NCBI GenBank assembly: GCA_021325525.1
Contig: JAJPHB010000137.1
Span: forward strand, 1 to 42,186
Direction: 5' to 3'
Length of the DNA stretch: 42,186 nucleotides
Origin: Alphaproteobacteria bacterium
GTDB taxonomy: Bacteria; Pseudomonadota; Alphaproteobacteria; ATCC43930; CGMCC-115725
Shown: one piece after another, positions 8,294-30,943 of the stretch
Layout of the letters: each line of letters begins with the position of its first letter
Numbering within the stretch: position 1 is the stretch's first letter
Position numbers and translations under genes: made by a program
The notes under the pieces: generated by a model
What the model was told of the DNA's origin: nothing
Databases searched by the model: none
What the model saw: the letters and a program-made list of their open reading frames with translations, nothing else

Positions 8294-11179
8294 ATGTCCG
8301 ATTACGCAAGTGTCCGCCGCATTCCGGAAAGGCAGGGCCGCGCGGAGACAAGAATGCGGCGACGCGAACTGGTGCAAAGACGAGAGGCGGAGCTGCCGTC
8401 CTTGGTCGACGCGCAGTCGCTGCTCGATGCCATCCTCGCGAATGGCAAGGCCCGCCTGTTCCTCGTCCGCCTCGATCCGCGCGGCGGATTCAGCTATCTC
8501 CCGCTCTCCGGTCGCGAAGACGGCGCCGGCATAGACCTCGCCAAGCCTGGCCTTCCGGTCGAGGTCGCCCTCGGTGTCGAGGCGGCGCGCTTTGCCGCTC
8601 CGCACTTCCGCGCCTGTATCGCCGGCAAGGCGCCCGTCAGTTATGAGGAGCGCGCAAGCCGGTCTGACGAGCGGTGGTGGCAAACGACCCTGCTGCCGAT
8701 CAGGGACGGCCGCGGGAGCGTGACGCAGCTTCTCGGTATCTCCTTCGACATTACGGAGCGCAAAAGCGTCGAGAGGACGCTGACGGCGACGAAACGGCAA
8801 TTCGAGACGATTGCCGCCAATCTTCCGGGCGTGGTCTATCAGCGCGTCCGCCATCCCGATGGGCGAGTCTCCTATCCTTATGTCAGCGAAGGCGCAAAGC
8901 GACTTTTCGGGCATGATGCCGAGAAGCTGCAAAGCGACTCCGCCTTGATGCTTGGCCTCATCCACCCCGACGATCGGCCATTGTTCGACCGCGCGATCGC
9001 CAAGTCGATGCGCGATCTCGGCCCGTTCGAGATGGAGGTACGCAACGTCGTCGCCTCGGGCGAGGTGATCTGGGTCCGCTCGGTGGCGCAGACCACCAAG
9101 CTTGCCGATGGCAGCATCCAGTGGAACGGGCTCATCCTCGACATTACCGACCGTCGCCGCGCCGAAGCGCAGGTCTTGGAGCGCGAGGTACGCCTGCGCG
9201 ACTTCGCTGAAGCAGCCTCGGATTGGCTGTGGGAAACGGATGCAGAGCTCCGCTTCACGCATATCTCGGACCGATTCTTCGAAATCTTCGGTATTCCGGG
9301 AGCCATGTTCCTCGGCAAGCGCCGCGACGAGGTCGCTGACACTAGCGACGAGCCGGAGAAGTGGCGCGAGCACTTCCGGACCCTCGCCGAACGCCGCCCG
9401 TTCCGTGACTTCACCTATTGCTGGCGGGTGAATGGACAGCCGGCCGGCTGGGTCAAGGTCAGCGGCCGTCCCGTCTTCGACGAGACGGGTGCGTTCCGCG
9501 GCTATCGCGGGACCGGCACCGACCTCACGGCGCAGCGCCAGGCCGAAGAGCAGGCCGCTGCCGCTTCTCGCCAGCTCCTCGATGCCGTCGAGGGCTTGTC
9601 CGAAGGCGTCGCCATCTTCGATGCCGAGGACAAGCTCGTCCTGTGCAATGCCCGCTATAGCGAAATCAACAGCGCGATCAGCGATATCCTCGTGCCCGGC
9701 GTGTCGTTCGAGGTCGTGCTCCGCAAAGGAATCGAGCGCGGCCTGCACCCGGCGGCGATCGGCAGCGAAGAGGAGTGGCTCTTGGAGCGCCTCGCCGACC
9801 ACCGCGCCGGGAATAGCCATTTCGAGCGGCAAGGCTCGGATGGCCATTGGCTCCAGGTCCTGGAGCAGCGGACGCCGGGCGGCGGAACGACGATTCTCGC
9901 CACCGACATCACCGAGGTGAAGCGACGGGAGCTCGCTCTCAGCATGCTTGCCGCCGCCGGCCAGGACGGCGCCGATTTCTTCGCCGATGCCGTCGAATCC
10001 TTGGCGGCGGGGCTCGGTTATCGCTGCGCGGGCATCGGCTGGCTCGACCGGGGCCGCACGCGGGTGAGGCCGCTCGCCTTCTGCGAGGCGGGGCTGCTGA
10101 CGGCGGGCGAGGCTTTCGACATCGCCGGCACGCCTTGCGAGACGGTGCTCGAGGAAGGCGGCTTCTGGGCGGTCGATCGCGAGGTGACGCAGCACTATCC
10201 ACAGGACACCCTGCTGCGCGCGCATGCTGCCCAGAGCTATGTGGGCGATCTCGTCTGCGATGCGGCCGGGCAGCCGATCGCGATCGTGTTCGGCTTCGAC
10301 GACAGGCCTGATCCGAACTCCGTCAAGCGGCGGGACATCACCGGGCTGATCGCTGCGCGGATCGGCCTCGAGCTGCAGGGCCGCGAGGCGGAGAAGCAGC
10401 TCCGCGAAGCCAAGGAAGCCGCCGAGGCCGCGAGCCGGGCGAAAACGGATTTTCTCGCCAATATGAGCCACGAGTTGCGCACGCCGCTCAACGCCATCAT
10501 CGGCTTCTCGCAAATTATCGCCGACGAGGCGCTGGGCGCCGCGGGACGTCCGGAATACAAGGACTACGCGCGCGACATCCATTCGAGCAGCCAGCACCTC
10601 CTCAAGATCATCAACGACATTCTCGACATGTCGAGGATCGAGGCCGGCGTGTTGAGCCTGCGCGAGGCGGAGGTCGACATCGCCGCCGTGCTGCGGAGCT
10701 GCCAGGGCCTGCTCGCGGCGAAGGCGACGGCGGCGGAGATCGCGCTGGTCCGGGATGTTCCGCATGAGCTGCCGGTGATCCTCGCGGATGAGCGCATGGT
10801 GCGGCAGATCGTGCTCAATCTGCTGGCCAATGCCCTCAAATTCACGCCGAGGGGAGGCACCGTCACGCTGGGCGCTCGAGCCGAAGCCGATCGCGGCGTC
10901 GTGATCGCGATCAGCGATACGGGAATCGGCATCGCGCGCGAGGATTTCGCCAAGATTTTCCGACCCTTCGGTCAGCTCGACTCGGCGCTCAATCGCCGCT
11001 TCGAAGGCACCGGCCTCGGCCTGCCGTTGAGCAAGGGGCTTGTCGAACTGCACGGCGGCACGATATCGCTCGATAGCGAGATCGGACGCGGTACGACGGT
11101 CTCCGTCTTCCTGCCTCTCGGCCGCGATGGCAGCGCTTCCTCCCTCGGGGATGTTCCGGCGAAGCGTCGCCTAGGATAA
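8294..11179 (+). CDS. Multi-PAS sensor histidine kinase
   Basis: A 961-residue histidine kinase without obvious membrane segments, so probably cytoplasmic. Four PAS-like modules can be traced: about 35-155, 165-285 (with LIHPDDRPLF), 295-420, and 430-545, each but the third ending in a DIT-type motif. A GAF-like region follows (about 550-695), then a short coiled coil. The dimerisation domain reads FLANMSHELRTPLNAIIGFS, with phospho-acceptor His726. The ATPase domain shows NLLANALKFTPRGG (N box), DTGIGIAREDF (G1) and FEGTGLGLPLSKGL (G2). There is no receiver domain and no adjacent response regulator, so it is an orphan resembling DivJ/PleC-type kinases. Signal unknown. Confidence 0.92.
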   Translation: MSDYASVRRIPERQGRAETRMRRRELVQRREAELPSLVDAQSLLDAILANGKARLFLVRLDPRGGFSYLPLSGREDGAGIDLAKPGLPVEVALGVEAARFAAPHFRACIAGKAPVSYEERASRSDERWWQTTLLPIRDGRGSVTQLLGISFDITERKSVERTLTATKRQFETIAANLPGVVYQRVRHPDGRVSYPYVSEGAKRLFGHDAEKLQSDSALMLGLIHPDDRPLFDRAIAKSMRDLGPFEMEVRNVVASGEVIWVRSVAQTTKLADGSIQWNGLILDITDRRRAEAQVLEREVRLRDFAEAASDWLWETDAELRFTHISDRFFEIFGIPGAMFLGKRRDEVADTSDEPEKWREHFRTLAERRPFRDFTYCWRVNGQPAGWVKVSGRPVFDETGAFRGYRGTGTDLTAQRQAEEQAAAASRQLLDAVEGLSEGVAIFDAEDKLVLCNARYSEINSAISDILVPGVSFEVVLRKGIERGLHPAAIGSEEEWLLERLADHRAGNSHFERQGSDGHWLQVLEQRTPGGGTTILATDITEVKRRELALSMLAAAGQDGADFFADAVESLAAGLGYRCAGIGWLDRGRTRVRPLAFCEAGLLTAGEAFDIAGTPCETVLEEGGFWAVDREVTQHYPQDTLLRAHAAQSYVGDLVCDAAGQPIAIVFGFDDRPDPNSVKRRDITGLIAARIGLELQGREAEKQLREAKEAAEAASRAKTDFLANMSHELRTPLNAIIGFSQIIADEALGAAGRPEYKDYARDIHSSSQHLLKIINDILDMSRIEAGVLSLREAEVDIAAVLRSCQGLLAAKATAAEIALVRDVPHELPVILADERMVRQIVLNLLANALKFTPRGGTVTLGARAEADRGVVIAISDTGIGIAREDFAKIFRPFGQLDSALNRRFEGTGLGLPLSKGLVELHGGTISLDSEIGRGTTVSVFLPLGRDGSASSLGDVPAKRRLG

Positions 11180-28907: not shown

Positions 28908-29725
28908 CGGGCTCGGCGTCACGTCTCGCTCGTCCGCTCGAGACGGCCGCCGCCTGGCTGCTCGGGCTTCTCTGGATCTTGCCGCTCGCCTACGCCGTCT
29001 GGACGGCGATTCATCCGGCCGCCTATGTCGCGCATTTCGCCCCGGGCGCGCCGCTGACCGCGGCGAATTTCGTCAAGGCCTGGAACGCCGCCCCCTTCGC
29101 GCGCTACTTCCTCAACACGGTCCTGCTCGTCACCATGATCCTGGCGGCCCAGCTCGTCCTCTCGACCCTCGCCGCCTACGCCTTCGCGCGCTTTCCCTTC
29201 CGCGGCAGCACCATCGCCTTTCTCCTCGCCCTCCTGCAGCTGATGGTCATGCCCGACGTGCTCATCGTCGAGAATTACGCGACGATGAGCCGGCTCGGCA
29301 TTCTCGACAGCATCCTTGCCATCGGCCTTCCCTACATGGCGTCCGCCTTCGGCATCTTTCTGCTGCGGCAGACCTTCAAATCGGTGCCGCGCGAGCTCGA
29401 CGAGGCGGCGCGCGTCGAGGGAGCGGGACCGATTGCGGTGCTGCTGAAGGTTTATGTGCCTTTGGCGAAGCCGGTCTATATCGCCTTCGCCCTCGTCTCG
29501 GTGAGCTATCACTGGAACAATTTCCTGTGGCCTCTCGTCGTGACGAATTCCGTGACGACGCGGCCGCTCACCGTAGGCTTGCAGGTTTTCGCTTCTGTCG
29601 ATCAAGGCGTCGATTGGTCGATCATCACCGCCGCGACGCTGATGACCTCCGCGCCGCTGCTTCTCGCCTTCCTGCTGTTCCAGCGCCAGTTCGTGCAGAG
29701 CTTCATGCGTGCCGGAATCCGGTGA
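28904..29725 (+). CDS. ABC transporter inner-membrane permease (UgpE/MalG type)
   Basis: A 273-residue permease, the partner of the preceding one. Six hydrophobic helices are seen, beginning AAAWLLGLLWILPLAYAVWT. The EAA loop reads LDEAARVEGAGPIAVLLKVY, followed by VPLAKP. Conserved NNFLWPLVVTNSVTTRPL lies near the end and is typical of MalG/UgpE. The start is the ATG of the ATGA overlap with the upstream permease; a much longer upstream frame is a shadow of that gene. This is the last gene of the importer operon, and no obvious terminator follows. Confidence 0.92.
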   Translation: MTGSASRLARPLETAAAWLLGLLWILPLAYAVWTAIHPAAYVAHFAPGAPLTAANFVKAWNAAPFARYFLNTVLLVTMILAAQLVLSTLAAYAFARFPFRGSTIAFLLALLQLMVMPDVLIVENYATMSRLGILDSILAIGLPYMASAFGIFLLRQTFKSVPRELDEAARVEGAGPIAVLLKVYVPLAKPVYIAFALVSVSYHWNNFLWPLVVTNSVTTRPLTVGLQVFASVDQGVDWSIITAATLMTSAPLLLAFLLFQRQFVQSFMRAGIR

Positions 29726-29743
29726 CGCCGGAGCCGATTGGGT

Positions 29744-29893
29744 TCAGAGAACCTCGTACAGGGCCAATCCCACCAGCCCCCAGAAACTCAACGACAAGCC
29801 GGCGATGATCGCGATTGATCGTCGGACGGAGTAGGGCTTGCCGTCTGGTTCCGCTCTGGCGAAGGCGAAGCGATTTTCGTCCAATGCCGCCAT
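29744..29893 (-). CDS. Small single-span membrane protein (49 aa), possibly CtrA-controlled
   Basis: A frame of 49 codons not overlapped by any convincing gene. It encodes MAALDENRFAFARAEPDGKP, then one hydrophobic helix (about residues 26-46, IAIIAGLSLSFWGLVGLALY), ending EVL. The charged head and single terminal helix suggest an inner-membrane protein with its N-terminus in the cytoplasm. A perfect TTAA-N7-TTAA box lies 46 bases upstream of the start. There is no clear Shine-Dalgarno before the ATG. The family is not recognised. A longer overlapping frame on the same strand (29703-29927) lacks protein character. Confidence 0.55.
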   Translation of the reverse strand: MAALDENRFAFARAEPDGKPYSVRRSIAIIAGLSLSFWGLVGLALYEVL

Positions 29894-29938
29894 TGGCCAA
29901 ATATGGCGGTTTTCGGAACAAAGACAATGACTATTTGG

Positions 29939-29953
29939 TTAACAATTCCTTAA
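29939..29953 (-). promoter_or_regulatory. CtrA-type binding site
   Basis: TTAA, seven bases, TTAA: an exact match to the consensus of the alphaproteobacterial cell-cycle regulator CtrA. It lies in AT-rich DNA 46 bases upstream of the 49-residue membrane protein. No rightward gene starts nearby, so it most likely controls the leftward one. Binding itself has not been shown. Confidence 0.55.
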
Positions 29954-30077
29954 TTCAATGAAACCATTACGACAAATACCAGTGATTGTTGAGAAGTGAC
30001 CGCGCAGCCATGGCGATTCATGAGCACGCGATTTTAGACTTTATTTTATCTATAGCATGAGGCGTGACTGGTCGACG

Positions 30078-30536
30078 TTACAGGACTTCATACACGTCAT
30101 AAATCGGTCCGGCGGGAAGACGACATCCGGTCGCGACCGCGACAATCTTGTTGAGCCAGAGATAGGAGGGGGCGCTCGTCTCGAAATACGGCGTCGTCCG
30201 GAAGTAATACTCTGAAGGCTCGACCGCTTCACCGCGATCGAGCCGCGCGATGACCTCTGCCGGACCGTGCCGGACGCCGCGATAAGCCATGTTGACGAGC
30301 GCCCCGTCCTCGGTTCGCAAGGTCGCGCGGACATCGAGCTGAAGGACATCGTCGCTGCGCCGGATGATCCAATCCGCGCCGCCGGGCAGCACGGATCCGC
30401 GCAAGCGCGGCCCTTCGAAGGAGCCGCCGGTGATCTGGACGATGCGGCGGTCGCCCAGCGGCGTCGCTCCCAGCACGAGTGCCGGCGCAACGGTGATGGT
30501 CACAGTGAAGAGAAACCGGGTGGCGATGTCGGCCAT
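30078..30536 (-). CDS. DUF3237 (UPF0311) family protein
   Basis: A 152-residue protein whose sequence follows the DUF3237 pattern: TRFLFTVTITVAPALVLGAT at the start, GDRRIVQITGGSFEGPRLRG, VLPGGADWI, DVRATLRTEDGALVNMAYRG in the middle, and FETSAPSYLWLNKIVAVATG near the end. The fold is expected to be a beta-barrel; the biochemical role of the family is unknown. AAGGAAAGGG precedes the ATG. No export signal is seen. It stands alone: its upstream neighbour is divergent and its downstream one is 184 bases away. Confidence 0.88.
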   Translation of the reverse strand: MADIATRFLFTVTITVAPALVLGATPLGDRRIVQITGGSFEGPRLRGSVLPGGADWIIRRSDDVLQLDVRATLRTEDGALVNMAYRGVRHGPAEVIARLDRGEAVEPSEYYFRTTPYFETSAPSYLWLNKIVAVATGCRLPAGPIYDVYEVL

Positions 30537-30667
30537 GGCGAAGGCCCTTTCCTTGAGGTCGAGCCGGGCAGCTTAGCGCCGGATGTTGCCGCAGGACAGA
30601 ATGGCGACCGCCTGCGCTCACAGAAATGACATCTCACTCGTCTTTCGCCGCTTGTAGGGTTCGCCGC

Positions 30668-30943
30668 ATGAGAGAGCCGCGAACGAGAGACGATCTGCAC
30701 CGTTCCGTCTGGTACGCCTATCGCCGCGCCATCGGGGCCGATGCGAGCTGGGATGCCGCCCGCGCCTTCCAGAGCGCGCTCGATGTGCTGCTGCGCCTGC
30801 GCCCCGAGCTGGACGCGCCGGGCGCGTGCCGCGAGGCCGCGAGAATGGTGATGACGCGGCCGCGCGGAATCGGCAACCGCGGGCGTGTCGCATCGCCGGC
30901 GCTGGTCCATCTCGGCGAGACGACGCTCGCCGCCGTCGCCTGA
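30668..30943 (+). CDS. Hypothetical protein (91 aa)
   Basis: A short frame with many Arg and Ala residues: MREPRTRDDLHRSVWYAYRR, then an amphipathic helical stretch (about 28-60, DAARAFQSALDVLLRLRPEL). No known motif was recognised. The in-frame start at 30626 is also possible, but the ATG at 30668 avoids a Cys/Arg-rich stretch without protein character. The Shine-Dalgarno is weak. It lies between the divergent DUF3237 gene and the OmpA-like gene. Reality as a gene is moderately likely. Confidence 0.5.
   Translation: MREPRTRDDLHRSVWYAYRRAIGADASWDAARAFQSALDVLLRLRPELDAPGACREAARMVMTRPRGIGNRGRVASPALVHLGETTLAAVA

Follow-up and report, generated by a model that had tools for sequence, protein, structure and literature searches.

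The Flp pilin PilA is a CtrA-controlled protein of 50–60 aa with one helix. In Caulobacter crescentus, HfiA, a protein of 65–68 aa with a hydrophobic stretch and no Pfam domain, is encoded by a gene that CtrA binds and activates at a TTAA-N7-TAAA site (92 bp), according to excerpts of three papers (PMC3900383, PMC6530869, PMC9980756). In the same excerpts, HfiA inhibits the polysaccharide glycosyltransferase HfsJ through direct interaction (PMC3900383), and HfsJ is assigned to the WecG/TagA family (PMC3900383, PMC6530869, PMC9980756). A 2023 commentary, likewise in excerpt, gives no known homologs of HfiA outside C. crescentus by BLAST at identity above 50% (PMC9980756). ExoX of Sinorhizobium meliloti and PsiA of Rhizobium leguminosarum are described, in an excerpt of PMC1403797, as small proteins attached to the inner membrane and proposed to be post-translational inhibitors of the priming transferase ExoY/PssA. 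Activation has been described as well: a single-domain response regulator is reported to bind the initiating transferase and thereby to activate the synthesis of exopolysaccharide (PMC12802240, excerpt).

A small gene behind a CtrA box

The relevant features of the window, the whole stretch of 42,186 nucleotides analysed here, are as follows.

29939..29953, no strand assigned: CtrA box TTAA-N7-TTAA, exact, at −60 to −46 from the ATG (motif search, TTAACAATTCCTTAA)
29744..29893, minus strand, stop codon included: gene of 49 codons for a small membrane protein with a single helix, predicted N-in (ORF list and relatives)
29828..29893, minus strand: charged head, residues 1–22, low confidence, positive residues adjoining the helix (AlphaFold2 and charge count)
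29750..29827, minus strand: predicted membrane helix, residues 23–48, with the family core S-x3-W (hydropathy, AlphaFold2, alignments)
30078..30536, minus strand: DUF3237 gene, a same-strand upstream neighbour outside the system (PF11578, E 1.7e-49)
30626..30943, plus strand: gene for a 105-aa protein with no Pfam match, a relative of which is also divergent beside the congener's small gene (BLASTP E 3e-19 with L002:1008-1283 (-))

The first-pass annotation of the window had pointed to an exact CtrA consensus with a leftward 49-codon frame beside it, and both were recovered. The box is the window's only exact match (0.01 expected; one of 100 shuffled sequences had one), and the frame (MAALDENRFAFARAEPDGKPYSVRRSIAIIAGLSLSFWGLVGLALYEVL, 49 aa, 29893–29744 on the minus strand) starts with an ATG, leaving 45 bases between start codon and box. 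It stops (29744) 18 bases away from where a convergent ABC permease frame ends, and 184 bases lie between the ATG and the last base (30078) of the DUF3237 gene. The further claim that this is the only gene start the box can serve was slightly too strong: the 49-aa frame stands, but two others are also near, a 74-aa frame with a TTG start (29927–29703, on the same strand but in another reading frame) and, at 30057, a rightward 52-aa frame with an ATG start, antisense to the DUF3237 gene. We judged both implausible as the gene of the box because of codon-position GC (0.56/0.48/0.74 in the 49-aa frame, 0.65/0.56/0.53 in the 74-aa frame) and because relatives were found for the 49-aa frame. No ribosome-binding site was obvious by eye before the ATG, and no sigma-70-like promoter or terminator was found in 29650–30150. 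An RNA gene at the locus was considered and rejected, with no tRNA or Rfam match anywhere in the window.

The charged head and single membrane helix proposed in the first-pass annotation were borne out by prediction. The best 19-residue mean hydropathy is 2.17, with 4 residues behind that stretch, and AlphaFold2 (20-row alignment) places one helix at residues 23–48, with a pLDDT of 93–98 in this block and 59–67 in the head. The 12 residues that precede the most hydrophobic stretch include three basic ones and the residues after it include none, which, under the positive-inside rule for the orientation of membrane helices, suggests an N-in topology.

That annotation had also made its reading depend on the presence of ctrA. 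The window's genome (G000; 4.79 Mb, 172 contigs) carries the gene on C172; its product scores 420 bits with the CtrA model and is the only protein above the cut-off of 350. Upstream of ctrA itself there are two exact boxes, at 74 and 191 bp from its start. Genome-wide, there are 23 exact boxes vs 16 for the reversed pattern, a mild excess. All 23 were inspected, 22 via crude gene calls plus the window's own; 20 of them lie ≤250 bp from a gene start, a raw count from these crude calls without a chance baseline, the exceptions being one box near no start (C79:27340) and two inside called frames (C136:6754 and C33:36431). Pfam matches for ten boxed genes were FlgI, flagellin, DUF1217, CheZ, a Tad protein, SLT_2, two DUF2336 proteins, a guanylate-cyclase/TPR protein and CtrA. 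The classical CtrA regulon consists of flagellar, chemotaxis, Tad and ctrA targets, and by sequence the small gene would belong to this regulon in G000. Among the family copies of this genome, the box is found only at the C18 copy, the paralogs on C142, C165 and C151 having none.

Two separate observations were made among the boxes of G000. Its DUF2336 genes L295:599-1738 and L297:1165-1854 have an exact box 160 and 25 bp in front, respectively, which suggests that DUF2336 proteins may be part of the CtrA regulon there. The genome has three PF02397 genes, and a one-mismatch box lies 216 bp ahead of one of them (L299:1001-1015, G000:C26).

Relatives of the small protein and their upstream boxes

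Conservation of the frame and of its box had been named as a check on the first reading, and the frame proved conserved, both as a 47%-identical relative beside a common neighbour gene in a congener and as a family with members in further genomes of the class. A single-sequence search of 99 genomes gave matches only in the window's own genome and the congener, and scanning contigs of named genomes with the window protein alone produced no confirmed match. In the congener, the relative is again a 49-aa frame, and its divergent neighbour is a relative of the window's 30626–30943 protein (54% over 54 residues). A second copy in this congener (L003, G001:C461), without a usable start codon and with a stop just upstream, is probably decayed or frame-shifted.

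Profiles of 2, 6, 11 and 26 rows, extended by protein pattern, led to relatives class-wide; the later rows were picked on protein, the boxes of some rows having already been seen at that point. By eye, the family core reads [E/D/S]-[R/K/P]-[L/W]-[S/P]-x-R...I...S-x3-W..I and ends near the C-terminus. The core W is invariant across the 26 rows of the last profile, within which identity to the window protein is 10–41%. At E≤0.01, the profile matched 16 of 39 genomes of the window's own family (f1) and 18 of 19 in the family f125. Class-wide, matches at E≤1e-3 were found in 38 of 389 genomes (own genome and profile rows included, some spurious), probably an underestimate because only 17–18 candidates per genome were scored. 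At the same threshold, a phylum-level draw gave matches in 13 of 396 genomes, 11 of the same class (own included) and two of other classes, one of the latter sitting in a 428-aa frame. Reversed-frame decoys scored at most 12.9 bits, and 52 frames at member positions (L195–L246) at least 20 bits, many of these being profile rows; other frames in the same loci reached at most 17.7 bits, and the top one (L243:10037-10231) resembles a further member. Uncorrected pN/pS was 0.38–0.69 (15 pairs, f125).

None of the curated cut-offs of Pfam and NCBIfam was exceeded by the window protein, the congener relative or 10 other members; for the window protein, even E values up to 10 gave no Pfam hit, and its NCBIfam hits all stayed below threshold. 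A plasmid tblastn search with two relatives returned nothing or chance-level matches, and the family model found only noise on ten plasmid loci (best E 0.067). On one replicon, Sinorhizobium fredii NZ_CP024310.1, a frame convergent to a sugar transferase (L268:4715-4924 (-)) has a W-rich C-terminal hydrophobic stretch; it looks like the family by eye, without a score from the family model. Gene order in f125 showed, by eye, only small clusters of common neighbours, such as uvrB. No description of the family was found in titles and abstract openings, a survey covering mostly non-subscription papers. The family apparently consists of undescribed bitopic inner-membrane proteins of 40–70 residues with a short cytoplasmic head and one C-terminal helix.

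For the box test, 59 profile hits were entered and 52, from 36 genomes, kept by a mechanical filter; the tail/W rule removed seven (G024, G033:C29, G351:C2, G363, G304, G108 and G000:C134), and start codons were likewise picked mechanically. Left out were early-profile hits without recurrence (e.g. L048, L051, L053–L055), the G001:C461 copy and hits above 1e-3. Within the first 150 bp upstream, 27 of the 52 relatives have a box with at most one mismatch and eight an exact one, against means of 1.8 (max 8) and 0.09 (max 2) in 300 shuffle runs. Ten other spacings (N2–N6 and N8–N12) gave 2–8 matches vs 27 at N7. Other half-sites at N7 gave 6 (AATT), 6 (ATTA) and 0 (TATA), and other positions 2 (150–300 bp upstream) and 1 (downstream). 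In 23 of the 27 boxed relatives, the box starts between −95 and −38.

These counts treat sisters (G206/G411, G181/G056, f125) separately, so that the sequences are interdependent. The f125 members are boxed in 14 of 15 cases; with f125 removed, 13 of 37 relatives remain boxed (shuffle mean 1.67, max 6). The box was enriched across the relatives at large and weakly so within f1, where 6 of 22 members have a box, other spacings give 0–4 and AATT-N7-AATT gives 5. In a later count of 11 members outside the profile, three had a box, two of them exact (G483:C35 at −52, G900 at −39; G570 with one mismatch at −38) and the other eight had none; these 11 are partly dependent on earlier material, as G132 had already come up, G900 is congeneric with profile row G206 and G483:C35 has a paralog among the profile rows. 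The tail rule dropped the later hits G043:C23b, G543, G469, G590, G867 and G796, and the profile rows G493 and G043:C23a (no box) and G126 (one-mismatch box) count towards neither of the two sets (52 and 11). Within the G206 group, the half-sites are constant and the spacer differs (CACGCCC in G206, AGGGCTG in G900). Taken together, the results support a real and conserved small membrane protein that is probably under CtrA control.

Polysaccharide genes beside the relatives

Gene neighbourhoods were compared in 52 loci (L195–L246, 765 kb), a set that differs from the 52 relatives used for the box test in lacking the window, C426 of the congener and near relatives and in including later hits. 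Adjacency was recounted for 66 members with flanks, of which seven have a priming sugar transferase of the PF02397 type within 250 bp, with <0.1 expected at about one gene per kb. PF02397 had 100 matches in 38 member genomes (about 169 Mb), a density from which 0.45 genes would be expected in 765 kb; the member loci contain 11, at eight loci. A transferase model matched 9 of 52 member loci, six of which had served as its seeds, vs none of 20 control loci; PF02397 confirmed eight of the nine, not L205. The contrast of 8/52 with 0/20 (one-sided Fisher 0.06) is weak taken alone because the controls span 320 kb vs 765 kb, and the density argument is the stronger one. BLAST with polysaccharide queries from three member loci matched 16 of the 52 member loci and, weakly, one of the 20 controls; three of the 16 are the query sources, L213 is a near copy and L238 matched a metallophosphatase only.

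The seven adjacent pairs differ in layout. In G206 and its sister G411, the small gene is convergent to the transferase, which is the only PF02397 gene of G206. It is divergent from the transferase in G544 and at G020:C253, the transferase at the latter being a fragment (104/179 positions). The two genes share a strand in G136, with the small gene just upstream, in G593, with the transferase upstream and a second small frame on the transferase's other side, and in G032, where the neighbour was detected by the transferase model only. Boxes are present in G206, G411 and G136 and absent in G020:C253, G032, G544 and G593. In G593, the two small one-helix frames (L243:7955-8074 and 10037-10231) flank the same PF02397 sugar transferase.

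Further members stand near other polysaccharide genes. The G195 member lies within a cluster of GT2, Polysacc_synt flippase and PF02397 genes, and GNVR chain-length genes are found about 1 kb or less from the members of G181 and G056. The G000:C165 paralog precedes, in the same orientation, a BBP2 barrel gene and a Wzz/kinase gene; the order of small gene and BBP2 recurs in G006. Among f125 loci, one of nine (G166) matched a polysaccharide query, and the window itself holds no priming transferase in its 42 kb and no polysaccharide gene beside its small gene. On a Paracoccus marcusii plasmid (NZ_CP157014.1, L276), a gene that carries the annotation response regulator CtrA is about 1.7 kb away from a gene for a sugar transferase.

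Possible function and comparison with known systems

What these results add to the first-pass annotation is the family and its polysaccharide company. The gene and its promoter are well supported. For its function we tentatively favour, at a confidence that stops short of an even chance, a CtrA-timed membrane regulator, most simply an inhibitor, of the initiation of surface polysaccharide, similar to HfiA or ExoX/PsiA without demonstrated homology. CtrA would bind at −60 and switch the small gene on along with flagellar, chemotaxis and Tad-pilus genes; the short protein would insert in the membrane with its head inside and meet a membrane glycosyltransferase of surface polysaccharide, namely a PF02397 phosphoglycosyl transferase and its Wzc/BBP2/Wzx company; and synthesis of polysaccharide or adhesin would be restrained in the CtrA-active, motile phase until CtrA falls. 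The window's stand-alone copy would act in trans. Of this, the box, ctrA, the gene, its predicted helix, the family, the box enrichment and the closeness of some relatives to polysaccharide genes are direct results. We infer the role as a polysaccharide regulator, and with it CtrA binding and activation at the box, the polysaccharide enzyme as target, inhibition, and the trans action of the window copy. We prefer inhibition to activation because HfiA and, as proposed, ExoX/PsiA, the small membrane partners in the excerpts cited, are inhibitors.

The polysaccharide link rests on the relatives, because the window copy, like most of the boxed copies in f125, is a stand-alone gene. The same stand-alone f125 relatives, the window copy's lack of a polysaccharide neighbour and the flagellar and pilus genes marked by boxes in G000 would also fit a real CtrA-controlled small membrane protein that serves another CtrA-timed process (flagellum, pili, division or envelope remodelling), the polysaccharide neighbours belonging to a different subfamily. 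We hold this rather unlikely, and the combination of box and polysaccharide context in G206/G411, G195, G136 and G181/G056 speaks against it. Improbable to a clearly greater degree is a positive accessory subunit, CtrA-induced to build an adhesin, that stabilises or activates the priming or export complex. The same-strand position of the small gene just upstream of PF02397 in G136 and upstream of BBP2 at G000:C165 and in G006 is what complex subunits might show, and the excerpted response regulator that binds an initiating transferase is reported as an activator (PMC12802240); against this stand the convergent or divergent layouts in G206, G020 and G544 and the inhibitory action described, in the excerpts, for HfiA, ExoX and PsiA. 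A chance frame beside a stray AT-rich match, in keeping with the frame's shortness, the unproductive scan with the window protein alone, the small genome-wide box excess and the weak excess in f1, is very hard to reconcile with the conserved frame, the box enrichment, the pN/pS values and the distance in score between reversed-frame decoys and the 52 member frames, many of them profile rows, and we give it almost no weight.

The preferred reading, a CtrA-timed regulator of polysaccharide initiation, can be set beside the described systems. HfiA, as its excerpts describe it, shares with the window protein its small size, a hydrophobic stretch, a CtrA site in the promoter and the lack of a Pfam domain, but, compared by description, its 35-aa hydrophobic stretch is central (78-aa annotation), whereas the window protein has one C-terminal helix, and its target HfsJ is of the WecG/TagA family, in contrast to the PF02397 transferases near the window protein's relatives. 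A search with a 19-mer from the hfiA promoter matched only a cyanobacterium and a Bacillota bin, and no Caulobacter record.

ExoX/PsiA, going by the excerpt, resemble the family as small proteins of the inner membrane. A gene near a priming transferase, as for the ExoX/PsiA type, is seen in the seven adjacent members and not for the window copy. On pSymB, where the record is unannotated, we take a 98-aa frame beside exoY to be ExoX, from its position and its length; this presumed exoX is 718 bp from exoY. By eye, its product has a hydrophobic N-terminal half and a charged C-terminal tail, the reverse of the window protein's architecture, and membership of or homology to ExoX/PsiA was rejected on the difference between one C-terminal helix and the hydrophobic N-terminal half of the presumed ExoX. 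From the Flp pilin PilA, the family differs, again by eye, in its core and in lacking a prepilin-type site ahead of the helix.

With fewer than 75 codons and no entry in either of the two curated libraries searched, this probable CtrA target is easily overlooked. An excerpt of the 2023 commentary asks whether other adhesin-making bacteria have an HfiA-like master regulator (PMC9980756), and for such bacteria the family supplies concrete candidates. More speculatively, and with doubt on our part, the family may as a whole be the class-wide counterpart of HfiA: CtrA-timed single-helix gatekeepers of adhesin or exopolysaccharide priming in bacteria without a known HfiA, the unboxed paralogs having become parts of particular polysaccharide clusters.
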